From assembly GCA_009192285.1 (NCBI GenBank), contig CM018603.1:310001-374000 (forward strand): 64,000 nucleotides of DNA, read 5' to 3'. Made by a program: the position numbers and the translations under genes. Shown piece by piece: positions 10,922 through 59,776 of the stretch (positions are counted from its first letter, which is position 1; each line of letters starts with the position of its first letter). The notes below the pieces were generated by a model. It did no database searches, was not told the origin of the DNA, and worked only from the letters and a program-made list of their open reading frames with translations. The DNA comes from Morchella semilibera. Its lineage: Eukaryota > Ascomycota > Pezizomycetes > Pezizales > Morchellaceae.

Positions 10922-13900
10922 ATGGCGCAGCATCGACGGGCGGACGAGAACGCAAAGAGGAGGCTGGAGGCACGTATGTAGTATCTAGATATTCTTACTC
11001 TTTGCAGTGGGGGTGGGGTGCGTGCCGTGCTGACGGGGGTTGCAGTGGACGCGGACGGAGACGAGTATCGGGCGTCGGAGTTTGGGGGGTTGAAGGAGTA
11101 AGATCTCTCCCCCTCTCTTGTTTTTCTCCCCCCTGTTATCGGTGGGAGAAGGGATGCATCATGGGATCTCAACCGGTGTGGGGAAGAGCGAGGACGAGGA
11201 CTCGGCCCAGGGTGACCTATGGAGCTCTGTGGACGTTCTGTATAGAGCTGTCCGTACGTATGGAGCTTGGAGAGTCGTATATGTGTGTTTATACTGGGAG
11301 ACATCTCGTGGATATTCTGAAAAGGGGAAATTACAGAAACGGCCCGCCTCGATATTTGTAGACCTGCCTACAGACTACCTCTGAACGGCCTACAAATCCT
11401 TGGAAATATCCACGGGATGTCTCCTATTTCTATTTATATATATATATACATACAAGTGGGCCAGGTCTTCAAGCTCCATAGCTCTATACCCCCGAGCCCG
11501 CCATCCCCCCCATTGCCCCCAGACCTCACATATCAACCCATCTAACTAGCTCTCCAGGTACATGGCCCGCAAGCGCATCAAGCTCCACCACACCACCACA
11601 CACCTACAGCACACGGCGGCGCCCACAGCGCACCCCACGCTCTTCCGCGGCCTCATCATCCACGTCACAGGACACACAGTGCCGTCCGCGCGCGAGCTGC
11701 ACACGCTGATCGCCGCGCACGGCGGCGCCTTCGCGCAGTACCTCGACGGGAAGACGAGCGTCACCCACATCGTCGCCGAGAACCTGGCGCGCGGGAAGAT
11801 GGTGGAGCTGGCGCGCTACCGCGTCGTGAGGCCGCAGTGGGTGCTGGATTGTGTGGCGCAGGGGCGGGTCAGGCCGTGGACGGAGTATAGGCTTGTGGGG
11901 GAGGAGGGGAGGGGCCAGAGGAGGCTGGCGTGGAGGGAGACGGATGCGGACGGGCCGTCGGGTTCGTTATCGAGAGATGTGGTCATCCCCGCATCGGACG
12001 AGGAGGACGCCGCTGCATCGGACGAGGAAGGGCCCATCTCGACAAACCCAATCTCTACAAACCCCAAGACTGTAGACCCAACACCCGAACCCGCAGCGCC
12101 AAAACCCGAGTACGTCCCACCCACCCCGGTCGCCCATGCTAACGGCCAGCCACTCTGGGCCGCAGATTGCATCATTGGATGCCGCACGCACCGCCGCCAG
12201 ACGCACTACTGGATCCGCTGGGTTGGCTTCCCCGACGACGAGGCGACGTGGGAGGGCGCGCGCGCGCTCGCGAGGGATATTGGGCGCGAGGGCCTGGCGG
12301 AGCTGGTCGCGGAGTGGCGGGGGAAGCCGCAGAGACGAGTAGGGACTGCTTGGGTGCTGAGGGAGGTGGAGAGGCGGGTGTTGGAGAAAGGGTATGGGGG
12401 CGAGGTTGTGAGGAAGGCTTTCGCCGAGGAGGAGGAGGAGGCGGTGGTGCTGAAAGAGGAGCCGGGAGTGAAGGAGGACACATATGCGGTGATAAGGGAT
12501 AGCCTCTCCCCCCGTAACCTCTCGACGGGAGAGGACGATATTGCGCTCCTACGGGGGTCCATCTTCAGCGACGTCGATATCTCGCCTGCTGGTGGTCAAG
12601 AGCTGGCCGTAGCTGGTCCGGCGCCTCCATCTGGGGGAGGCCAGGAGACTCCCCAGGAGCCCACAGGGCAGCAAGAGAACCCAGATCCCACACCCCCCCA
12701 GATATTGCCCAGTCTGCCCGCGCCAATGTCCAGCGCCGGCGGGAACGACCGGAAACCAATACCACCACCAGCAAAAAGGGCACCCGGCTCGCCCGTGGTC
12801 CTTTCGCGGAGCTTGGAGTATGGCTCGTCGGTGGATTTTGGGGAGCTGGTGCCTGTCGTGAAGGAGGGGACGGCGAGTAACAGTTTTGGGACGCCGGTGG
12901 ACTTTGACGTGGGTGTGCTTACGCAGGCGGGCCCGGCGGTTGAGGAAAGTATCCTCCCAGGTCCTGAGGACCAGGACGGCGATGTCCTGATGTCTCAGGC
13001 GGAGCTCTTGACGCCTAGAGAGGAGCTGGAGGCGTATAATGCCCGGGCGTATGAAGACCTCGAGCCTTTGCCCGATATGGGGTCTCCGGAGCGGCAGCTA
13101 CCACCGGTTCAGGAATCTGAAGAGCCGGGAGGAGACGTATCGATACCCCCACCGCAACAGGCCGACACAGAGCCTTCTTTAGAGCTCATGGCCGCCTTTC
13201 TATCTAAGCCCGGTATCCGCTCGCAGACGGTTCTTGACCCGGGTTTCCTCCAATCCTACTTCTCACACAGCCGGCTGCACCATCTCAGTATCTGTAAGAA
13301 ACACCCTCTCTAAAAAGTAAAGTCATAAACATACCCTCTAACCTCCCTCCCATTACAGGGAAATCCAAGATCCGCGCAGACCTGCACCCGCACATCCTCA
13401 CCCTCAAGCCCAAAAAGGACCGCCCCCGGCGGTACGTCCTTCACGCCGACCTCGACGCCTTCTTCGCCTCGGCCTCCCTCCTCTCCCGCCCCGACCTCAA
13501 GGACAGCCCCGTCGCCATCGCGCACGGCACCAGCAGCTCCTCCTCCGAGATCGCAGCCTGCAACTACCCCGCCCGCGCCTTCGGCGTCAAGGCCGGCATG
13601 TGGCTCGACCGCGCCAAAGAGCTCTGCCCGTCCCTCGTCGTCCTGGGCTACGACTTCCCGGTGTACGAGCGCGCGAGCCGCGGGTTCTACCGCGCCGTGC
13701 TCGAGGTCGGCGCGGAGCGCATCCATGCCGGGAGCGTTGACGAGGCCGTGCTCGACATCAGTAACCTGGTCTACGACGTGGGGCTGGATACCGTCCAGGA
13801 CGAGGAGGCGCGCGCAGCGCAGATCGCGCAGCAGCTCAGGGAGGGCGTTAGGGCTGCCACGGGGGGGCTGGAGGTGTCCGTGGGCGTGGGGGGAAACATG

Positions 13901-15989
13901 CTCCTTGCGAGGCTGGCGTTGAGGAAGGCAAAGCCCGCGGGCGTGTACATGGTCAAGGCGGCGGAGCTTGACGAGTTTCTAGACGGGATAGTGGTCGCGG
14001 ATATGCCGGGGGTGGGGCCGAAGGTGGTGGCGAGAGTCGAGGAGGCGTTTGGGACGGGGAGCGTGAAGGTGTTGAGGGGGGTGCGGAGGGATAGGCTTAC
14101 GAGGGTGCTGGGGAAGAAGACGGGCATGATGCTGTGGGGGTACTGCGGGGGCGTGGATGAGAGGGTTGTGGGGGAGGTGGCGGTCAGGAGGAGTCTGTCG
14201 GTCGATGTGTAAGTACTTCATTGGTTATCACTCGGTGTTCTTTTAGGTTTCTGGAGTTATTTATTAATCATTTGTTTATACTCTATATATGGCGTTGGGG
14301 GTTTGGGGGACTCATGTCTTGTCACTCGTGTTTTCATCCCCCCATACATTATCACTCGCACCTTCTCATTATCATTACCCCTATATCCTACCACCCCCGC
14401 TAACACTCCCCGCTCACAGAAACTGGGGCGTCCGCTTCGAAACCACCCAGCAAACCGAAGCCTTCATCACCCAGCTCAGCGCCGAAGTCTGCACGCGCCT
14501 CACGGCCGAGAACCTCCTCGGCGGCCACGTCACCCTAACCATCAAGCAGCGCTCCCCGCACGCCCCCTTCGAGCCCGCAAAGCACCTTGGCCACGGCGAG
14601 TGCACAACGCGCTCTTACGGCGTCCGCCTCCCCGCGCCCACGGCTAGCCCGTCTAAGATCGCGGAGGCCGCGACGGGGATCCTGCGCACGATGAGGGTGC
14701 CTGCGTGGGAGCTGCGCGGGGTTGGTATCACTATGGCGGGATTGAGGCTTGCGCTGGGGGGAGGACAGGACGTGCTGAGGTTTGCTAAGGCGCCAGCGGC
14801 GGGCGGAGGCGCAGAGAATGTACCGCCGTGGGACCGCCCGCTGCCTAAGCCTTATGTCCGACCCAAGCCTGCCTCGCTCCTTGATAGCTTTTTTAAGAAG
14901 CCGGTAGTGCCAGTGCCAGTGCCAGCGCAAGCCGCGCCTGAACTGGAACAGGAGGTAGAGGCAGAGGCAGAGGCAGAGGCGCTCGTCTCAAGCACACAGT
15001 TCGAGATCCCCGACGATGTCGACGAGGATGTGATCCCGTTCCTGCCCCAGCCCCTCCAGGAGCGTATCCGAGCGCACCAACGCCGCGCCGGAAAGGCCCC
15101 CGCTCGAGCCCCGGACCAGCAGGAACAACTGCAGGTGGAGGAAGCAGAGGAAGAGGAGGACCTCAGCCAGCCCCCCAACTCCCAAGACGACATCACCGTC
15201 TGGCGCGCCCTCCCAGCCGACATCCGCGCCCTGCTGCGCTCCGAGCACGCCGCTGCAGCCGCAGCAACCCGGGCCCGCTCGCCCCCCAAGGAGAAAGCAA
15301 AACGCCAAACGCTCCTCCCGCACAGCCCCCGGAAGCTCCCCAGCCTCCCCTGGGAGCCCCTCTCCCCGCGCAAACCCCGCCCCCGCACAAACCCCACAAC
15401 GCCCACCAAGCCCAGACGTGCCCGCCCTCCCCCTCCCTCTGAAGCCGGGCCCTCGACGACAAGGCACCGCGACGGCCCCGTCCTCGACGCGCGCGGGAAC
15501 GACGTCTCGTCGTGGCTGTTCACAACGGCCGGCATCGACCGCTCGTACTTCCATGCGGTGCCGGCCGGCGACCAGCGCGCCATTGTCGCGGCTGCTGTGC
15601 GCCAGCATGGGCCGCGGCTTGCGGCGCTGGCGGCGAGGGCGCGGCGCGAGGCGGCGGAGGCTGCCAGGCTCGCGGGCGCAGTCAGGCTTGTGGACCGGGG
15701 CGGGCGGACGAGGAGGTTGCGGGATGGGACGGAGGTGGCGACGCTGGCGCAGCTCAAGGCGTTTGTGAGGCGGGTGTGGCGCGGGAGGGATGCGGAGGGA
15801 GTGCGCGTGCTGGCGGGGCTGTTGGATGAGAGGTGGGGGGAGGGGGCGGTGGCGGAGGTGCAGGAGGTTGGTAGGCTGGTGGGGGTCTTGGTGGAGGGGG
15901 AGGGGGCGGAGGGGGAGTGGGCGGTGGCGGTCGGCGGCGTGGTGGAGATGTTGAGGGGGTGGGGGGTGCGGGTAGATATATGTAGGTAG
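10922..15989 (+). CDS. REV1: DNA repair polymerase REV1 with an inserted chromodomain
   Basis: Five exons (10922-10973, 11046-11097, 11558-13293, 13359-14208, 14420-15989) encode 1419 residues with consistent phases. REV1 is a Y-family deoxycytidyl transferase and scaffold for translesion synthesis in the nucleus. Landmarks in order: SEFGG and KRIKL near the N-terminus; a BRCT domain (about 61-148, with GRVRPW); a chromodomain-like block (about 234-290); the SRLHHLSIW motif, whose Arg607 corresponds to the template-independent dCTP-pairing arginine; catalytic HADLDAFF (Asp644, Asp646) and GSVDEA (Asp741, Glu742); helix-hairpin-helix MPGVGPKV; NWGVRF opening the little-finger region; three UBM-like ubiquitin-binding motifs (near 1096-1120, 1154-1173, 1268-1290); and a C-terminal helical domain for polymerase/REV7 contacts. 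The second intron (460 bp) contains a foldback repeat. The first two exons are short and rest on phase plus the SEFGG motif. Confidence 0.93.
11240..11489. repeat. foldback repeat inside REV1 intron 2
   Basis: Nested inverted arms: 11240-11249 with 11481-11489 (GTATAGAGC / GCTCTATAC), 11259-11268 with 11471-11480 (TATGGAGCTT / AAGCTCCATA), and 11297-11315 with 11406-11424 (19 bp with one mismatch). The centre holds a smaller TTTGTAG / CTACAAA pair. Arms are interrupted by unmatched bases, so the structure looks like an aged foldback or MITE that landed in, and enlarged, the intron. Confidence 0.7.
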
Positions 15990-17821
15990 ATACATAGGTA
16001 GCTCATATATGTAGGTAGATAGAAAAGTGGCTGCCGCAATCATTGACGCGGGAGCTAGCGGGTAATTAGTAGACCCCACCGTTTTAGGTATGGCCCTGAA
16101 TATTAATCAATCAATCAACCAACACAGTCAGCTAGCTAATAGCCAACCAACGGTACGGTAGCATAACACCTAGTCTGGGGAATAGTAATTTCCTTCTTGA
16201 CCCCCACACACCTTCTGCTTCTGTCACTGCGGTGGGGTACGTCTTGTGTTGTGTTGTGTTGTGTTGTGTTATTGGGCGCGGTCATGGGGTATCACTCGAT
16301 GCCAGTGTGGCCCATGAGCCGGTGGCAGGCTCGTGGTGGTCGATGGTTACAAACAGGACATCCGCTCGCCTACATAACGGCAGATGGAGGCCCCATCTCG
16401 GCGTGGTAGAATAGAATACTCTGGGGCAGTAAACTATTTAGTCGGCCGGTAAAACCGCCTCTTAGGGCCTATTCCGCGGGCCTATAACTAGCTGCACCCT
16501 CTGCACCCTCTTAAGCCTTAACTCCCCCTTTATAAGGGGGGTGCTGTTTAACTCTGTATAGAGGGTGTTCTGTCATTTACGTACCGCCCCGCCAACACCT
16601 TACCCCTATGAGGCGGGCGGGGGGCTCTTTATAGGGCGGTCCAAGTGTATGAGTAGGGTGGGTCTGTAGTGGCTAGGCGGGGTGGGGTGTCTGGCTACGT
16701 GGGCGGGGTGGGCCGGTGGCTGGTGAGGGGTTGTTTCGGGTCTGATCACTCTACAAGGCTGGCGTCTAGCTAGCTAGAAGGCAGGTGTTTCTTTCATGGT
16801 CAGGCTGCCGCTTCTCTTTGTGCAGCGGAGGCTTGCTATAACGGGAAGGGTAGTCTCTGATCTATAACAGTAGCACTTCTCGCACCGAGTGTACCGGGCT
16901 TATTAATGCTCTTTACTAGTTCGGGCTTATGTCCCTGTGAAGGTTTGAATCGAGTGATATTCTGTGACGGGTGGATTGATTGATCGGCCCGAAGGTTATG
17001 GGGTCGTACCCTATTCTGGGCAGGGGTGGCATAGCATGTACATGTATGCAGCCTAAAGGCTATGAAGATCTTACCCGACCGTCTCCTGTGACCGGGTGGG
17101 AGTGGGTGGGTATGGGATAAGGGATGGGGTGTCCGGTGTCCGGGTATATACGGTGCATGTATGTAACCCTACCTGGAATCCGCTCTAGCTCTCTGTTCTG
17201 GTAAAGACGGTATTCGGCAGTTTGATATTGGGTGGAGCTCTGGTCCGGGGTATGGCTCTGGGGGTCTTGAAACTGGTCCTAATAGCAGGGGACGGGCCGG
17301 GAGCGGGAGCGGGAGCGGGCAGGTTATTGTCACTAGCTAACCCTCGCACTAAGACGCTGCTCCCGCCTCCGCCCCCGTCCGTCCGTCACAGAGGACATAT
17401 TTGGTGTCTTTTCTGTGGCTGCATCAGGTATACAGGATATCTAGCTGAGCACGTATATAGAAATAGAATTGAGGTCAAGCTTGCAAGATCTCTAATCTTT
17501 TGAGGTTTTGTAGGTCGGAGCCCAATTGAATAGATACTGCCTACAATTGAACCCATTTTCTATATACTCTGGCATCACAAGCAGACGCTCACCATTGAAG
17601 GCCCTCTCAGAACTCAACCATGCTAGCATCCTATGACCAAAAAAACTCCGAAACGCCATTCTATCCGATTTTCCGATACCGTGCCCAGCTTCCTCATAAA
17701 CCCCTTGTACGCCCCCCGGGCAGCAGCATCATAACTGCAAACCAGACAAACACTGTTACTACAATCACAACATCCCTCCCGAAGATCTCAAGGAATAAAC
17801 TAGTTACTATACTCCAACGAA
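15990..17821. other. gene-poor region downstream of REV1
   Basis: No gene is supported. The stretch includes a (TGTGT)n tract near 16241-16270, a GC-rich near-palindrome at about 16523-16541 (CCCCCTTTATAAGGGGGG) and TACATGTA at 17038. The part just before 17822 is A/C-rich and looks like a fungal 5' untranslated leader. Confidence 0.5.
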
Positions 17822-18735: not shown

Positions 18736-18856
18736 GTATTTGAGAAAATTCGTTGCGCTGCAGCAGGGGTCTTCTCTACCAAATCTTGCATATTTACTGC
18801 CTCTGGACGTTGGCCCATACCCCTGCTGCAGCGCAACAAATTTTCTCAAATACTAC
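18736..18856. repeat. hairpin-forming inverted repeat (MITE-like)
   Basis: The left arm, about 18736-18770, and the right arm, 18819-18856, are reverse complements across about 35 bp with one or two mismatches; both contain TTGCGCTGCAGCAGGGGT or its complement and TATTTGAGAAAATT. The loop is about 48 bp. The arms are long enough for a stable hairpin transcript. A short nonautonomous inverted-repeat element or a small-RNA precursor would both fit. Confidence 0.8.
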
Positions 18857-19507: not shown

Positions 19508-20541
19508 GCTAGCTAAGAGTACCCGAGAGACACTTATGTACTCATCAGCTCCCGATCACATGGGGCCGCCAACTAGCTAACCCCCTATGTATGGATTTAA
19601 GATTGGTCCAACCATGCCCTACGATTTTAAAGATTGGTAGGATATATGTCAATCGCGTTATCTCACGGTCCTAGAAAGGGGGGGGGGGGGATTTCGAAAA
19701 GCACATGCCTTTTTTCCTTGAGCCGTTAAAATTAGGGACTTGTGATGCAGCTGAATTCACCAAAGACATGCGCGTATCTGGTGTTCATATACCGCAAAAT
19801 CTCGGGGGGTTGCCAAGGCAAAAAGCTGACAATCTTCACCATTAGAGGAAGCGATCTTCGAGAAAACAGCTCTCTTTTCGAGATCTTGCGGTATCCACCT
19901 GAAGTGCATTTGTGCCATTTTAAGTTATGCTCCCACGCGGGATTTTGACTGGGCTCATCTCACACAGGTGCACTTCACAAGAGAGGACTCAGCAAGTGCA
20001 GTAACAGACCTTGAGAAAGCTGCACTGGGTGTTCCACAAAAGAATTATGCCCGACCAATTATGGTGTCTTAGCTTAGCTCACGGCGCTTCTTTCCACAGA
20101 AAGCCTCAACCATGTAGTTTCAGTACTTCGAGCAACCAAAGGTTTATGAAATAACTTATGATATTAGCGCCAGCAGATACATAATTCTATGACCACACCC
20201 CATCGACTCGAGGGGGAAAATAATCTATAGGGCTATCACATACGCATAAATAGCGCAGGAATTGCCTTTTGGACACTGCTCCTCCTCTCTAGGGTACCCT
20301 AAGGCACCTCTCGTGGTATCTATACCCCAAGCAGTTCTTTAGACCATTCACCTGGCAATGGTATTGCCAAATTCAGGGTGTGCCTGTAGCATATACACAA
20401 GTTTGAAGAATCCACCCTACCCCCCCCCCCCCCCCCGGATCGGAAAATATAGAAAGTACCAGCAGTCATGCATTTGCGCCTATGCGGTCGCGTCGGGATA
20501 AAGATGAAGAGGTGGGAGCGCAAGCTCTTTTGTACAGCCTA

Positions 20542-20638
20542 TGGTAGAATTATTGTAGAAATGTGGTAAGAGTCCTATTGGCTGGGCCAGCCACCTAAAC
20601 CCTGTTTTTAGACCCCTGTTTCTGCAATAATTCTACCA
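20542..20638. repeat. 97-bp inverted-repeat element
   Basis: Terminal arms of 20 bp, TGGTAGAATTATTGTAGAAA at 20542-20561 and its reverse complement with one mismatch at 20619-20638, enclose a 57-bp centre. Size and terminal symmetry fit a small MITE. No target-site duplication is clear. Confidence 0.7.
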
Positions 20639-22497
20639 GATGTTGTAGCTAGAAGCACAATGAAGAGTGGGCGGCGGGCCGTGACAGTTCCAAAGATGCT
20701 ACATCTAACAAGTTAACCCTGGAAGCTGGCGGAATTGACGGAACTAACCATGAGGTCTTGTCACAAAACGCATATGTTTCGAGGTTTCCCGCTGGCCCCT
20801 TCAAAAGGGTTGGCGCGTTACCCTAGGCTACCATCAACGGTGATAATCATAGTATTGACTCGGGTCTTTTAAAGGAAATACTGATCCAGTTTCAGATAAA
20901 TATGTAGTAGAGTTAAAGCGATAGCCTTGCTTGGCAAAGGGCCTTGGGTTCAGTCTAGGGATAGTTCAATACTGTTGAAAAGGGTTTGCCCGGGTACCTG
21001 TCCAGCTGAATGCTCACAAAGGGACTTCAATCCTGGGGCCCGGAAAAGATAGGGAGAGATTGCCAGACTGGTTTTACATTTCAATTTTGCCATAAGCATA
21101 CGTAAATGTATACTCGGTAGGGCATGACGTGTTGTGGTGAAGTACATGTAAGCCTGCCGTCTCACTATTAATACTGTCACTATGTTTCACACCAATTGCC
21201 CGGATTATCCTGAAGAGTGCTTCCTAAAGAAATATGGCCATCTGGAACTAGAGTGCAAAGATTCGTAGACTATCGAAATCTGGGAACATCTACATACAGG
21301 GTGTTCACGTGGGACTGTAAAAAAAATTTGAGTCCTACCCGTACGTCCAAATTGGATAGTGCTTCTACACATGCAGCTACCTATTAAAATAGCGCCCCAG
21401 AAACTTCCTGGAACCAACATAAGTTTATGAGGGGGGCTGTTTTTCAATCTTTATCGTTAATTAATAAGAGAACCATTATTATTTTACAAATAGCCGGCCG
21501 CCAGGGCTGTATATATGTGCCGAAGTAAAGGATCAGTTACTTGTCAAATAACTCAAGATCGATTTCGAGTTTTGATTGGATTGGTGGTTCGACACATAAG
21601 ATGTTCCATCTACTCTAACGGAGACAGTATTGGGCGGGTGCGCTCTTAAGTAGATTCCTTATGAGTCCGGCACTCTTGTTGTTTTCCTCCAGGAATCAGC
21701 CGAGTAATCATGCACTCTATATACATGTATGCATTAACAGAAATCGCTATCGGCCGTAGCACAAGACGGAGATGAGCTCGCCTACATCAAGACTTACACC
21801 CCGAATACTTTATGGGGCTGAAAGAAGCTTTGGGTTAATTGGATTACTCACATACGTATACAACATACTGCATCCATGTATCTTGCAGACTCAGACATGT
21901 CTCTATGTGAGCATGGAGCAACAACATCTACGATGCTGATCATTCCCCCGGAGTCCCCTCCCATATACAGCCACCCCACCGGCTGATTAACCGATATTTT
22001 GATTACACCTTAACACCGCATTGATGACTCCAATATCTCGGCATGAGGAAGTCAGTAAAAGGAAGATTACTAACGATTTTGATAAGACTGGGTCTTCAAT
22101 TGGTCATATTGTAGGCCGTATCGTTACCAGGGGGGGAAAGTATTACATAACGGATAATAGGACCTAGGTCATTCTCGACCCATGGGTCTTGGGTCTATTG
22201 CTGAGAGGTCGTCAAATTAAAGATTGTGGTTGGGGCCTACAAGTGCGGTTCTAGGCGATTTAATTCTTCGATTGGTTTTTCAGTGGCGCCTGCCGAAAAC
22301 GCTGAATGGAAAAAACGTTCATAAGCACAGTAAGATGTGGGGATCAACAGGCAGTAGTGCTTGAAGTGCCGCTCACAAGGGGAGACACCCACAACCACAC
22401 ACCGTAACTGTTGGTCCAGCCTAGGTTACTATCATTGAGCCATTCTATTGACTAGGAGTCGGTGCTGGGGCTGAGTTACCCAAGCTCCCTTAACATA

Positions 22498-24409
22498 CCG
22501 TAGGAACTCGACAAATACAGACCGTTGCCGAGCATGTGGCTTGCAGAATTATGAGATCATTATTCAAGTTCTAAAAAATTACAGGTCCGAGCTCACTCAT
22601 CTTGGAGTCTATACTCCGTATCATTACATGTAATAATAGGTAGTTCTAGGTTTTCTTTCTCAGATGTTCCGTAACCAGCTTCCTCCTCTGAGCGAGCCCA
22701 ATCACCAATAACTAATTCTCCAGGAGCAAAACCCTTTATTTTGATCTCATTATCACGGGATCCATCTACAGGTAGTGAAATACCTGTATCCTTAAAGCTT
22801 TGAATTACTATTTTTCGCTTTTCAGGATTGTTGTGCCATGTTTCCCATGCCTGACCTACGGCTTCTGTTGTCACAATCCGATGTTGACTTACACTCCATT
22901 TATCTATATCCCGGTCTTCTTCCATGCGTTCTCGTGCTACTTCAGTAAATTCTTTGACTAAACCCTTAAAGGGTTTGTTGACAGCGACATCAAGCGGTTG
23001 TGTCATGGATGTGGTTCCAGCTGGAATTAAGGAGGGAATAATATTGTTGTCTCGGCATTTTTGAATTACAGTTGGTGTAAGGTGAGCTCGATAGCGATCA
23101 TAAACAAATAGTGATCGTTGGTTTCCAAAAATTGGAACAAGGTATTTTTCAATGAATTTAGCGAAAAGAGCCTCATTCATCCAACCAGTTGGTGTAAACT
23201 CCACATGGACGCGTTTATCCCAAAATCTTGCCTCCTTTTCACGTACTTTGTCGCCAGTAGCTGCAGTAAATATTAAAATAGGTGGAACACGTGGAACACC
23301 GTCTGCAAAGATGCATAAAAAAAGGGTGCATTGCCGTTTCTCCGATCCAGACTCTGAACTTTTAGACCATATCGTATTTGCCCCCTTTATATGATATGTA
23401 CGCCCGGTCAAATACTCCCATGGCAATGGAGTTTCATCGACATTGCAAATTCGGTGATCAGGAATTCCACCTTCGTTATGGTTGCAAATAAAATAAAGTG
23501 AATGCGGGAATGGAGTAATTGTGGGAGGTACTAGTGGTGTAAGGGTTCGATTACGACGGTTGAATTTTAGCCATTCAATGATTTGTTGTTTATAGTCGTC
23601 AGGAAGCGATTGAGCAGTATTGGTAACAAAACGTAATACGATTCGATGACGTGACAGAAATCCTTGAAACCATCCCCGTGAAAATAAAAAAAGATTTGAT
23701 CCAACATTTTGGTAAGTATCTTTCCACAATTCACTAGCTTTTCTCCGAAACCATCCATCTCGCACTGGTCTTCCTAATGCCCTTCTTTCAATGAATGCGT
23801 CAAAAAGCTTCTTTTCCATTTCTGGCCACATGCATACAAAAATAACTGGTGTATCGCGACGCGACCTATTTCCTTTTTGTTGCAAGATTTTTTCCATCGC
23901 ATCTGGTTGGGTCCAACACGCTATCGTACTCTTTGGGATTTGAAAAAATATAGATGCTTCATCAAGGGTTGGAGAACGCGTCTTGATTGCTGTATTTAGA
24001 GCCTCATTGGGGAGCCGGTAATATCTTAACCACATCAAAACCTGGATTTTGCGTTCACGGGGATAACTGCGTTCTACCCTCTGGATTGGCTTTATCTATC
24101 CGATATTAATCAAGATTTTCCTGGGAATATGCTCAACCAAAACCTACCTGTAAATTTGGTAGTCTTTCCTCTATTGATTTCGGTTTTTGGCCTCGGCGCC
24201 GAGCAGATCGCTCCTTCTCATCGTTCTCTTTGAATATCCGTGACTGTTTCCTTCCCGCTGCCATTTTCATTCTCATGATCTGTATTGTGCAAACAAGCTA
24301 AGAGATGGCAAGCGAGGTGGGTAACCAACACAACCCTAGTTTTATTAAATGGGTATAGATTTGCAAGCCACACTCTCGGCAACGGTCTGTATTTGTCGAG
24401 TTCCTACGG
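22498..24409 (-). mobile_element. pogo/Fot1-type DNA transposon, complete
   Basis: The element is 1912 bp with 48-bp terminal inverted repeats at 22498-22545 and 24362-24409, identical except for two adjacent bases. The ends read CCGTAGGAACTCGACAAATA and both are flanked by TA, the target-site duplication of Tc1/mariner-superfamily elements. It carries one two-exon transposase gene in reverse orientation. Near-identical ends and an uninterrupted coding sequence suggest a recent insertion. Its right end is about 400 bp upstream of the kelch gene start, so it sits in that gene's upstream region. Confidence 0.95.
22593..24276 (-). CDS. pogo/Fot1-family transposase (DDE_1 with CENP-B-type HTH)
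   Basis: Two exons on the minus strand, 24148-24276 and 22593-24080, encode 538 residues; the 67-bp intron has GTAGGT and CCAG ends and is phase 0. The start at 24276 gives MRMKMAAGRKQ; two in-frame ATGs follow closely. N-terminal Psq-type helix-turn-helix (about 43-100, VERSYPRERK and IPKSTIACW), then a CENP-B-type DNA-binding domain (about 120-195), then the catalytic core: first Asp in NVDETPLPW (258), second in FVYDRYRAH (371), third in MTQPLDVAVNKPFK (407), a DD35D spacing. The enzyme would bind the element's ends and cut and paste it at TA sites. No break is seen. Confidence 0.93.
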
Positions 24410-24812
24410 TAGGAGGCTAACGTTAATCAAAACGTTAAGCTTTTCTCTGATCCTTCAGGGCTGAGCAGGTCTAACTTTGTTCTGAGAAATTTAGGGTCAC
24501 GTCGCACCAATGGTGTTTTGGAAGACTGCAACTGCAGGGAGGTGAAGAAAATGAACCGCCGCATAGGAGTACCTCCATCCTAATAGCCGACATTGCACAA
24601 CCCTGTCCCCCGCGGCCAGACAGGGGTGGTGTCCATGTTGATAAATCAGAAAATAACAAAGTCTGAAATGTGCTTACTATTATTATTACCTGTCACCCCC
24701 CCCCCCCTCTCTCTGCTGCCACTACTTCTACTCGATAGCCCCCAAAGCTTTAGAGATTTTCGGATCTTCTCTTTTGTTTTCGCTACCACACTTTTGGAAC
24801 TGGACATAAAAG

Positions 24813-40151: not shown

Positions 40152-41282
40152 TACTGATTTTTTTGTACTCGTGCGATAGGGTTTTAGATAATGGAATACG
40201 AGGATAGCCCAAACAAGAAAATCGAGTAGATACGTGGTCCTCTGAAAAACTATTGTTGGAAACAAAGAACGTAGACTGTGAGTGCTGAGTTTTCCCTTAT
40301 TGATTAGTTGTTGAATATGGGATAGCTATAGCCGGATTTCGAGATGCTTGCGCGTCATCTAGCAGACAACTCGACGAAAATCACCTTGGCAGGTTAATCT
40401 ATGCTTGGCAGGGTCTTTTAAGATACATGTATGTCCGGAAGAGGTGGGGTGGTTGATCCGGAATCGTAGGTTTAAACATAATACATTGTATGTGTTCAGC
40501 CGTGTACGTAAATGTTCGGTAAAGGCTACAAACCCCGGTTGTTCAACGGTGTAGGGATTATGCACCCGGTACTTCCATGACTGTACTTACAGTCCCCTTA
40601 ATCATAGAATATCACCCAGACTCCGGATTCACCGTTGGCTGGGACGTGATAAGCTACATGCATGATCCTAGGGTAATAAACTTTGTATATGGTATAAACA
40701 AATTTTCTACTCCTAATGATCTAGCCTCACCCACGCTCTAACCACAATGATCAAGACAATGTTAAAGATAAAAATTCTATAAACAGCCTAAATCCCCCAA
40801 AACCCGAAATTAAGAGGCGTACTACAGTACCGAAAATGCGCAGAAATTGACTACCGTATTCCAGTCGTTACCCTAGTGGTGCGGTATCGATATGGTACTC
40901 TACTTACGATGCTGGTTTAAACCGGTATCCTTGACTCGATACCGTAGCCCTACGGTTACATTTCTACCCCCTGTTTTCGGGGCTGTAGTACTATGAAGAG
41001 CCCCCCCGAGTGATGAATTATGAATTAAATCGCCTTATGACTGTTGTGGCGTATGAATACAGCGCCACATTAGAGTCATCCTGCCAAGAGGTCCCAAGAC
41101 ATGGCGCGTTGTCGGAGCTACGTGCCACATTCGGAACTATTCTCGCTCGCCATCCAGTATCGATAAACCCTCGATTCCGATTCTTTCTCAACCCCAACCC
41201 ATCTCCCACCCTACACCCATCACCTCACCCTCATCTCCACAACATCTTACACTCCATACAGCGAAAGAACCTCAGCCGAGAT
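40152..41282. other. divergent intergenic region
   Basis: Lies between the IQM-like gene (-) and SF3B6 (+) and should hold both promoters; no gene is seen. TACATGTA occurs at 40427. Confidence 0.5.
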
Positions 41283-41833
41283 ATGAATCGGGGTGGTAAG
41301 CTCGCTCCTGAAGTCCAGAGAGTTCTGTTCGTGAAGAACTTGAGGTTCGTAAAGCTCTCGCTGTCTTCTTCCCGGCCGCTCTTCCCTCCCGCTGACATAA
41401 GGACAACAGCTACAACGTTTCCTCTGAGGAACTATTTGACCTTTTCGGAAAGTTTGGCCCAATCCGGTATTACTCTATCTTGTTTTTCGATAAATTCTTA
41501 TGCTGACAGAGCGCGTCAAAGCCAAATTCGCCAAGGAATAGCAAACAACACTAAAGGAACCGCGTTTGTAGTCTATGAAGATGTCATGGACGCGAAGACA
41601 GCGTGTGATAAGTTGAATGGTTTTAATTTTCAGAATCGTTACCTTGTTGGTTAGTTATTAACACCCAATTCCCCTTCATCGCTAGTAACGAATAAGGAGT
41701 TCCGCTGACACCGACTTGATGGAAATGAATAGTATTATACCACCAGCCTGAGAAGATGGCGCGTGCAGAGAACGATCTAGCGAAACGCCAGGAGAGTTTA
41801 GAAAAGCTCAAGAAACAACACGGAATCGATTAA
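41283..41833 (+). CDS. SF3B6: splicing factor 3B subunit 6 (p14 / SF3b14)
   Basis: Four exons (41283-41344, 41410-41466, 41522-41649, 41733-41833) encode 115 residues with consistent phases. The protein is the U2 snRNP component that contacts the branch-point adenosine. It is one RRM: RNP2 is VLFVKNL, then [20 protein letters not shown], and RNP1 is [31 protein letters not shown] and the C-terminal helix [19 protein letters not shown] follow, ending at HGID. Length and sequence are close to other fungal orthologues. The acceptor of intron 1 (ACAACAG|C) was chosen over a nearer AG because it gives the conserved NLSYNV. Confidence 0.95.
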
Positions 41834-51471: not shown

Positions 51472-54400
51472 TCAGGCCGGTGTCGGCCCAATCTTCCCTG
51501 TCCACTGCGCCTGCAGCTCCCCCAGGGACGCGCTGCTAAAATTGATCGCAATAAGTCTTGCTGTTGTTGCTGCTACGAAGGGGACCGTAAGGTCTATTGT
51601 TGATTCTAATGCTGTTGAAGTCGCCGTTACAGCAGCTGTTAATACGCTCGTGTCCAGCACCAGACTCTCTACAACAGATGACACCGGGTCGGCGTCGATA
51701 GGGGTTAGTGCCGGAAGAACAGCGCTGACAAAGCCAGTTCTGACTACGGTTGCCATTGTCGACTCTACTTGTGTAGTAGGGAGATTTACTGCTTCGACAG
51801 CCTTGAAAGAAACCGCCATGCAATGGCACTGGCAAGCACACGCCGCGCCAGGAACGGCGCTGCCTGTTACTACAGCAGCTGTTGTAGTAGCTGATTCTGT
51901 CGCTGCTGCTGTTGTGGTAGTAGTAGCGGCCGTCCCGTTTAGTGCGATGGCGGAATCCTGGAATGCCTTGAATGTTTTCTCGGCGGTTGGGTTGATGGCA
52001 AATACCATTCCCTTCCCACAGTGGGAAGTTTGCGCACAATACCACCAAGTTGGCTCAGTAGTTGTGACAGTGTAATCAAACGTCGGCGCAGGAATAATGG
52101 TGCCGTTAATATTGCTCAGAAAACCTGAGTCAATTCCCTCAACGGATATTTTATTGCATGGAGCACTAAATGTTGACTGAGTAACTGTATGATTCTGCCT
52201 CATGAATACGAAGTGTACTACATCGCCGACCGTAGCACTAATCTCGGAGGGAGTATAGACAAGCCCTAATTCCCCTCCAACAATTACCTCATGAGTTGTG
52301 GCGGCGACGACGGCTGACGTCGAACTTGTAGCAGCAGGAGGCGAGGTTGATGTCCCATTCAGGGCGATGGCGGCATCTTGGAATGCCCTGAACGTTTTCT
52401 CGCAGGTGGGATTAATGGCGAATACCATTCCTCTTCCGCAATGAGCAGTTTGTGCACAATACCACCACGTTGGGTCTTTAGAAGTAACAGTGTAGTTCCA
52501 AGTGGGCGCAGGAACAACTGTATTGTTAATGTTACTAAGGAAGCCTGAATGGGCCGCGTTAATTGATGCCTTGATACATGGGTTGCCAAAGGTTGACTGA
52601 GTTACTGTGTGATTTTGTTTCATGAAGACGAAAGTGACAATGTCACCGATCTCAGCAGTGATTTCTGAGGGACTATAGACAAGACCTGCATCCCCTCCGA
52701 CAATGACGGTGTGTATAGCCCCTCCAGTTGGTTCCGGACAGGGAACGGTTGTGGTGATACTGGTAATTATGTAAATGGTTGAAAGCTCTGCGGCCGACTG
52801 AGTTTCAGCGGTGATGAGTACTGTTTCCTGATGGAGGAAAATTTGTTAGCGAGTGATAATTCATGAGGCGTATATCGGAACTTACTGTCGCAACGCTGGC
52901 TACGGTCTTGGTTAAAACGTTACTCAAGACCTCGGTTTCCGTAGAAATCTTTGTCTCAGTTGCGATACTATGAATGACTTGTGTCGCTGTTTCGGTCAAG
53001 ACTTTGTCCTCTGTGACAGTAGCAGTGGCTATCGCGGTGCTATGGGCAGTCTCTGTGGCAACACTGTGAACTACCTTAGTCTCAGTGGCCAACATTGTTT
53101 CCGTAGCTATACTGTGAATTATCTGAGTCTCCGTAGCTAACTTAGTCTCAGTAGCAGTACTTTGAATAACCTCAGTCGATGCTCTGTCGATTGTGGCAGT
53201 ACTGCCAACGGTCTCTGTTGCGATGCTGTGATCAACTTTCGTCTCAGTCTTCAAAATTGTCTCTGTGACGATGCTATGAACGATTTGAACCTGAGTTTTC
53301 GTCGCCAATTCTGTCAAAGTAGAAATCTGGGTCTCAGTCGCGACACTATGAATAACCTGCGTTGCCGTCTCTGTGGCCACACTTTCAACCACCTTCGTCT
53401 TCGTAGACAACTTCGTTTCTGTAGTGATACTATGAATAATCTGTGTCTCCGTCTCCGTCTTAAGACTCTCAACAACCTTCGTCGCTGTATCAAGCTTAGT
53501 CTCCGTAACCAGCTTCGTCTCAATCTTCTTAACCACCTCCGTCGCGGTCTCCGTCGCCGTCATCTCTTGCGTAAAGATTTCCGTCTGCACGATGTGAGAA
53601 ATCTGCACTTCCGTCTTCGTCTTCAACTTCACTTCCGTCTTCACCGCCGTCTCCGTCACCTTAACTTCAATAGTCTTCAGGTCCGTCTGGGTGACAAGTT
53701 TCTCAACCGGCACAGCCACCTCAACAGTATGCTACCCAACCCCATGTTTCATATTAATAACCCTCTATCTACTCGCTTTGTACAACAGGGGAATACGGAA
53801 CTAACCAAAAGTGTTTCAGTAGTAGGCTCTGTTACAGTCACATGAACTGGTGGAGCGGTTTCGATAACCTGTTTGGTTTTATATGTTGTTAGCGGTTATA
53901 GGGATTTAAGTCGTTAATTATTGACCGGGTTATATTTACGGTGTTGTAAATTGTCACATGCTGTGTCTCTGTTACGGGCTGTACTCTGTTTTGATAATTA
54001 GATTTTTACTCCAACAGTGGAAAAAAATGAATGTATTAACAAAAGAGAGGCATTCTTACTGAGTAACATGTTTAACTTCCGTTGAGACATCCGTAACATG
54101 CAGGGTCCTAAAAAGGCCATTATTAGCCAGGTTAACCTCAAACCGACCAACCAAACATTAAGAATACTTACTCAGTAATATGCACCTGTTCTTTTTCAGT
54201 AATGTGCATAACCTCAGTTGAAATATCGGTGACATGCAATGTCCTGGAACAATCAATAAACAACTCAACTCAGCCTAACTTCGAAGTTACTTACTCAGTA
54301 ACATGCGCCTGAACCTTTTCTGTCTGCACCACTGTCACCAAAATCGCCGCTGCCACACTGTTGCTGCTAGCTTGTGGCTGTCCCCGTTTTGATAATTTGC

Positions 54401-57725: not shown

Positions 57726-58796
57726 CCTATAACTAACACCAAGCAGGCGTAAACAAACAGAATCCGTGGGAAATGTATTAAAGTATATGGGGTTTAAGTT
57801 TGGTGTTTTGTTTGGCGGGTTTGGGGTTGGGCTGGTGGTTCGGGCGTGATTGATGTTTTTTCTTCTTCTCCCTTCTGTTATTATCTGTGTATGTTGTATG
57901 AGCTTCCAGATGGATAGCATGTTTGCCTTACTGGCCATGGTGAGGTACGGCCTCTGACCTACTATATCTAGAAATCTACACCTAGGAAGGAATTACAATA
58001 TCGAAGTGCTGTAGCAGTGCGCAAAAAAAAAAACTAGGAATCCAATTAAAGAGCCCTATAAGTGATCATAAGTGTGAATCGAGATCTCTCGCTCTTCAGG
58101 ATAACTTAATTTCACGACGTATTAGGACCAATAATAATAGAACTCGCGTGAAGTACATGTAAGCTTTAGAACATACAGTCGCGTATGATGAGATTTTGGG
58201 ACATCTATTTGTGACTGCGTTGTTTACGGCCCGATTATTTGGGGGATATTTTAAATTTCCAGCTGATATATAGAGTCCAGTGGGTTATTCATCTTCTAAT
58301 TCTAGCTTAACTCAATTACAGAATTGCTCAACATAACTTAGTGTCTTTTTTTATATATATATTCTTAAATTAGGTTCTTGTGTCTAGAGAATCTAGGGCA
58401 AGAGCCGAAGTCCATATATCACGACGTCAGGCCAACCAATCAGCGCTGCAGCGCTCACAGTTTTTCTTTTTTAGCTATCTAAAGCCCTTGCCTGCATGCA
58501 TCGAACTTAGATTTAAATTCTCCGGCCCGGGACGATCTGCTCCACCAGGTTGACGGGTACATAGCATAGAAAATTCTGGACTTCTAGGCATGCGGAAAGT
58601 CTGGTGGCCAACAAGGGACACATACCAGGGTTTGGAGTTCCCTAGCTGGGACACGCCATGGTGGCGTGAGCGCAAGGCTACCAGGAACGAAAGATATGCG
58701 CTGTCGAGGATGGATTATATAATTGGGTTTATGTAGACAGCTGGCTATATATTCCCAAAGCCCGCCTTCACGTAAGTATCATGGCCATGGTGTGAT

Positions 58797-58908
58797 GTAC
58801 AGCGACAGGTAACAAGTGATGGAACGCCCTGAGAGTACAAATTAAACACCAACATTTGCGGTGTTTGTACTCTCAGGGCGTTCCATCACTTGTTACCTGT
58901 CGCTGTAC
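58797..58908. repeat. perfect 45-bp hairpin
   Basis: Arms 58797-58841 and 58864-58908 are exact reverse complements over 45 bp (GTACAGCGACAGGTAACAAG at the outer end), separated by 22 bp. Within the loop AACACC and GGTGTT can extend the stem further. Perfect identity over this length implies recent formation or selection on pairing. There is no open frame. Confidence 0.95.
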
Positions 58909-59776
58909 TTCGAAACGAAATCACAGCTGGTGGCATTTAGTCCATGATACGAACACATATGTTGGGAGATCAATATATAACCTACTTAAGCGCAGGAAAT
59001 TCAGGATAGGCATATTATAATGTACATACATGTAGTTATTATCATGAGAATAGTAGCAGATATTGGTTGGATGTGTCTTTAGGAGCTCAACTTCGACCTC
59101 TAGATGTATCTGTCAGTCCTAGCTAAAGTTTGGGGAATTAATATATAAACACTGTTATAATATTGCTACACGACCTACTTGTATGTCTTCGTCCGTATTT
59201 AGGAATTGTAGTAATCTGTGGCTCACCATAAAAAATTAGCTGCAGACTCTAGCTGTCGACGTGATAGTGTTCTAATTGCCGTTAACATTGTGTGTATCAC
59301 CACACCACCTCCTCGGCAAAAGATTGTGAATCGCGGGAACAGACGAAGACATCACCACGCCGCTTCTTCGGGCAGAGAGGCGTCCGTTTGGCCGGCCGCT
59401 GTGCTAGAAAAGGGAGGGCTAGGGGTTAGGGTTAGTCCCTTGAAGCCCTTCCTGACTGCCTATGGGCTAATCGGGTTAGTTGTGATAATTATCATTGTTA
59501 CTACAAAAAAAAAAGACTTCCTCTTATGAGCATCTATCAACCTCTCTAGCTTTTTATGGTAAGCTTAACGCCCTTAAAACTCGTGAAAATTACTAAATCC
59601 TTTAAACATCTATAAAACTTTGTAGAGAACTCAATACCATACGCTTTCTTCGCATTATTCTTCGCATTATAAAAATAATGGTTTGAAATATAGTTACAGT
59701 AATGCGCCGTAATCTTTCCACCGCCCTTTTCAGGAACATAGTGATATTTCCGGCCATCATGGTTACAAGAAATAAA

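Follow-up and report, generated by a model that had tools for sequence, protein, structure and literature searches.

The locus described here raised the question of whether a fungal REV1 carries a chromodomain between its BRCT domain and its polymerase core and, if so, what such a domain would do. The coordination of translesion synthesis with chromatin is an open question. No description of a chromodomain paired with REV1 was found among the listed papers and passages of the open-licence literature searched. Binding of the kind predicted from the sequence would tie damage-tolerant copying to the state of chromatin. The source DNA was from Morchella semilibera (assembly GCA_009192285.1, contig CM018603.1, positions 310,001 to 374,000 of the forward strand), and the whole stretch of 64,000 nt that was analysed is referred to as the window. 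The window is eukaryotic, and its introns and genes point to a probable fungal source.

The REV1 gene was modelled on the plus strand at 10922..15989, and all the features of the gene given below lie on that strand. The model contained five exons coding for 1419 amino acids in frame, without an internal stop. Exon 1 (10922..10973) is directly followed by GTATGT, and exon 2 (11046..11097) is preceded by TTGCAG and followed by GTAAGA. Exon 3 (11558..13293), defined by its open frame and splice sites, contained the BRCT domain, the predicted chromodomain and the linker, with the BRCT domain at 11637..11891 (residues 62-146; Pfam BRCT_2, 46.8 bits). Exon 4 (13359..14208) was assigned to the palm, fingers and thumb of a Y-family polymerase from the Pfam matches IMS (132.5 bits, residues 644-801) and IMS_HHH_1 (34.2 bits, residues 828-880) in the whole protein, while exon 5 (14420..15989) contained most of the little finger (IMS_C, 52.7 bits, residues 890-1005) and the C-terminal tail. 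The four introns were of the GT-AG type, with lengths of 72, 460, 65 and 211 nt, and the acceptor was preceded by CTAAC in introns 2 to 4 and by CTGAC in intron 1. Intron 2, the longest of the four (460 nt), contained 20-nt inverted repeats at 11297-11424 (95% complementary, 88 nt apart) that resemble a small foldback element or MITE. The region 12001-16000 was GC-rich, with values of 0.64 and 0.66 in its two 2-kb blocks against a window mean of 0.49.

A search of the PDB revealed budding yeast Rev1 (8tlq_B, a chain of 985 residues) as the top match, with an E-value of 1.1e-86 over two stretches, one for the BRCT domain and one for the core. REV1 accounted for the top seven of the 79 PDB sequences (E 1.1e-86 to 7.1e-63), and three separate REV1 BRCT chains were matched as well. 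The alignment with yeast Rev1 showed that SRLHHLS-WK and the catalytic acidic stretches HADLDAFF and SVDEAV were retained. REV1_C had no Pfam match in the whole protein (up to E 1) or in the last 196 residues (up to E 10), searches that a divergent copy may escape, and no REV1 chain was obtained from the PDB with these 196 residues. Since REV1_C went undetected, orthology is based on the BRCT domain and the core; by this order of domains, with a Y-family core closest to REV1, the gene at 10922-15989 is identified as a REV1 orthologue. No UBM was matched by Pfam in this protein, and NCBIfam produced nothing relevant for the REV1 tail or for a 90-aa piece containing the chromodomain. Two LP-centred stretches, PFLPQPLQERI and WRALPADIRALL, were found by eye in the C-terminal tail (15000-15989) and may be UBM-like.

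The Pfam-A family Chromo (PF00385) matched residues 236-273 of the whole protein with 25.9 bits (E 9.2e-6), just 0.8 bits over the curated cut-off of 25.1. The score was 31.3 bits (E 1.9e-7) in the 90-aa piece and 32.5 bits (E 8e-8, with 24736 families searched) in a 64-aa piece, and Chromo was the sole Pfam match within residues 147-643. None of ten composition-preserving shuffles of the 90-aa piece hit a Pfam family at E 10 or lower, in a test where the HMMER filters discard most matches above E 0.1. With phmmer, 53 distinct PDB sequences were matched up to E 10, and four (SUV39H1 and three from HP1) reached E<=0.001. By their names, such as Rhino, Oxpecker and MPP8, all 53 are chromodomain proteins. 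A 62-aa piece produced 55 matches, again chromodomain proteins, with 4 at E<=0.001. The entry RE36324p (4quc), among the 53, is Rhino according to a legend in PMC5039027. The top match was the HP1 chain 6mha_A, in which, as in REV1 here, Trp replaces the Tyr of HP1 1kna_A. The profile match ends at position 40-42 of 53 and leaves the C-terminal part of the chromodomain uncovered, with the last quarter of the domain missing; this part is divergent, and the basic stretch RGKPQRR comes after the domain. The earlier note had placed a chromodomain at 12153-12323, after the BRCT domain and ahead of the core. This segment corresponds in the gene model to residues 234-290 in exon 3, in agreement with the note, and with profile scores of 25.9 and 32.5 bits against the cut-off of 25.1, together with the shuffles and the phmmer matches to HP1 and SUV39H1, a chromodomain in the REV1 linker is confirmed at the level of sequence.

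The alignment with HP1 placed W235 (12156..12158) on the first residue of YAVEKII, W256 (12219..12221) on the Trp of LKWKGY and F259 (12228..12230) on the Tyr of KGY. These are the positions of the fly HP1 aromatic cage (Y24, W45 and Y48), and on this alignment all three cage positions are aromatic in REV1. Three tryptophans had been named as the cage in the earlier note: W235 and W256 fit the HP1 alignment, but W266 (in ATWE) is not a cage residue there, and F259 takes its place. The cages of Pc/CBX chromodomains are described in PMC13068663 as two Trp with one Tyr or Phe. The first strand, WAADCI, aligned with the similar FAAECI of CBX2, a likeness that may hint at a Polycomb-like groove; sequence alone cannot separate K9 from K27, and peptides with K9me3 and K27me3 are, according to the same review, often poorly discriminated in vitro (PMC13068663).

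Structure prediction by AlphaFold without an alignment showed two strands and a helix in a 73-aa piece (strands 9-17 and 20-28, helix 34-59; pLDDT 66.7) and in the 62-aa piece (strands 7-15 and 18-26, helix 32-58; pLDDT 74.6), with the TWE motif inside the predicted helix in both models. Foldseek against the PDB produced no match at E<=0.001 for either of these single-sequence models. The chromodomain fold, in which three antiparallel strands pack against a C-terminal helix, was not recovered in these uncontrolled runs without an alignment, which showed two strands and one long helix.

The coding status of the segment was assessed with a codon score trained on the remainder of REV1. The stretch 12153-12326 scored +0.221 per codon in frame, while the other forward frames scored -0.422 and -0.316 and the best reverse frame +0.12, which supports a segment that shares the reading frame of REV1 and resembles the rest of it in codon usage. 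A stretch of 56 nt at 12110..12165, which overlaps the first strand of the chromodomain, has the form of an intron (GTACGT, GCTAAC and GCAG), and its removal from some or all transcripts would take part of the domain with it. It is the only stretch of the strict form (GTANGT, CTAAC, 40-120 nt) in REV1 exons 3 to 5, among 8 in the window on both strands (6 plus, 2 minus), and the codon score of 12111-12164 was about zero (-0.071). Its removal, however, would cause a frameshift, with a stop after 111 codons, near 12500 and upstream of the polymerase. The signals searched gave no second intron that restores the frame, and on this evidence a full-length REV1 requires 12110-12165 to remain unspliced. 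The strict form was also absent, by inspection, from all four modelled REV1 introns, and we consider it very improbable that this stretch is intronic. Splicing of the whole domain was looked at separately and rejected: one GT[AG]NG donor was present in 11950-12175, with 2 frame-preserving introns to a YAG acceptor in 12230-12700, neither of which had the branch site CTRAY.

A chance resemblance within the GC-rich linker would fit a whole-protein score so close to the cut-off and a predicted fold that was not recognised, but it is hardly credible beside an E-value of 8e-8 among 24736 families, shuffles without a match and PDB matches to chromodomain proteins only. A chromodomain captured into the linker, for example from an LTR element, and retained as a harmless, neutral or decaying insertion is improbable in our judgement, though less remote. 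In line with such a capture, residues 147-643 match no Pfam family other than Chromo, and in a screen of 1237 fungal genomes Chromo is one of the domains for which over 1000 candidate host-TE fusions are listed, without being exclusively TE-derived (PMC10799480). On the other side stand the good match of strands 1 and 2 and of the cage, the REV1 codon usage, and a Pfam search of REV1 that revealed no other mobile-element domain, with neither integrase nor reverse transcriptase present. Among ten ORFs of the window, Pfam (E<=0.01) detected a DDE_1 transposase, with integrase, reverse transcriptase and chromodomain all absent, and a single chromodomain motif pattern, scanned through the six frames of the window, hit nothing but the REV1 site. 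In the collection viral_contigs, 12 pattern matches were obtained with the 90-aa piece and 5 with a stretch of 260 aa from the polymerase core, with no relatives for either. The same 260-aa stretch had 187 relatives in genome_contigs, the best 80 of which were titled bacteria or archaea; the scanned collections contained no set of fungal genomes.

Other elements and genes were observed elsewhere in the window. A DNA transposon of the pogo/Fot1 type at 22496-24411 has 57-nt inverted ends (91% complementary) and a minus-strand ORF (22596-24095) with DDE_1 and HTH_Tnp_Tc5. Close-armed inverted-repeat pairs, possibly foldback elements, were found at 18736-18853 (35 nt, 97%), 20533-20647 (29 nt, 86%) and 58794-58911 (48 nt, 98%). 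A minus-strand ORF at 51475-52845 scored 26.3 bits (cut-off 21.2) for a copper-binding domain of the plastocyanin/azurin-like type, and a plus-strand ORF at 40989-41651 had a partial RRM_1 match at its end (27.6 bits, cut-off 20.7).

For the function of the domain, we tentatively propose, with a little less than even confidence, that this fungal REV1 binds the methylated histone H3 tail through its linker chromodomain, and that the domain acts as an extra tether. The target would be an ARKS-type site on the tail, K9 or K27. The BRCT domain would keep REV1 on PCNA, as is known of other REV1 proteins, while the chromodomain grips marked nucleosomes beside the gap. In silent chromatin, this would retain REV1, together with its partner polymerases, at lesions or DNA structures, and would keep the filling of gaps near the parental marked histones. 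The profile match, the shuffles, the HP1 relatives, the aromatic cage (W235, W256 and F259) and the in-frame codon usage argue for the tether; the unmatched last quarter of the profile, the change of WEPENN in HP1 to WEGARA and the single-sequence AlphaFold models without a chromodomain fold argue against it. Work in DT40 and in embryonic stem cells also bears on the proposal, and neither organism is known to carry a chromodomain in REV1. Contacts of other REV1 proteins with PCNA and partner polymerases are described in PMC9225081. DT40 cells without REV1 lose histone marks near a G quadruplex; at the studied locus these are H3K4me3 and H3K9/14ac, with H3K9me2 cited from earlier work. Against the tether, H3K9me3 was not raised at that locus in these REV1-deficient cells (PMC4282387). 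Factors of silencing and H3K9 methylation interact with replicative polymerases in fission yeast (PMC6801657). Against a general role in heterochromatin, REV7, a partner of REV1, is stated to favour euchromatin in embryonic stem cells, with no colocalisation with H3K9me2 heterochromatin (PMC11747621).

The main rival to the tether is a domain that is a chromodomain by descent but has lost histone reading and would serve REV1 as a DNA- or protein-binding module, as in GEN1. This reading arises because the GEN1 chromodomain, in the human protein, contacts DNA and bound none of the histone peptides tested, according to PMC5039027. The divergent C-terminal part, the basic RGKPQRR after it and the early end of the profile match are consistent with such a loss. 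The three aromatic cage positions of REV1 point the other way, since in GEN1 two of them are occupied by Leu and Pro and a helix closes the cage (PMC5039027), and on balance we regard a GEN1-like module as rather unlikely.

Returning to the tether, a wider form of the proposal is possible, if doubtful: REV1 would itself read the silencing mark, on H3K9me or H3K27me nucleosomes, so that both error-prone lesion bypass and the keeping of parental marked histones at gaps would be directed to silent chromatin, and the arrangement would be a fixed trait of a lineage of fungi. In vertebrate cells, histone marks close to replication blocks are protected by REV1 (PMC4282387). With a histone reader built into REV1, the coordination of translesion synthesis with chromatin would become testable in one protein through mutation of three residues, and polymerase targeting would be suggested as a means to tune mutation in silent chromatin.

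Compared with known systems, the BRCT domain and Y-family core stand in the same order here as in yeast and human REV1, whereas REV1_C and UBM of known REV1 proteins were undetected by Pfam. The gap between BRCT and core is 50 residues in yeast Rev1 8tlq_B (260 to 311) but 435 here (158 to 594), with the chromodomain inside it. Alignment with HP1, SUV39H1 and Polycomb-CBX covered the first two strands of the REV1 chromodomain, its cage positions and its TWE motif, and 12 of 37 aligned residues, counted by eye, were identical to fly HP1 (1kna_A). The REV1 domain differs from HP1-type chromodomains in the Trp at its first cage position, in its divergent C-terminal part, where WEPENN of HP1 reads WEGARA, and in having a polymerase as its carrier. 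The Holliday-junction resolvase GEN1/Yen1 is likewise a DNA-repair enzyme with a built-in chromodomain, present from yeast to human and absent in C. elegans according to PMC5039027. There, GEN1 has a Tyr near the second of the two cage positions taken by Leu and Pro, and a helix closes its cage (PMC5039027), whereas the cage predicted for the REV1 described here is aromatic at all three positions.
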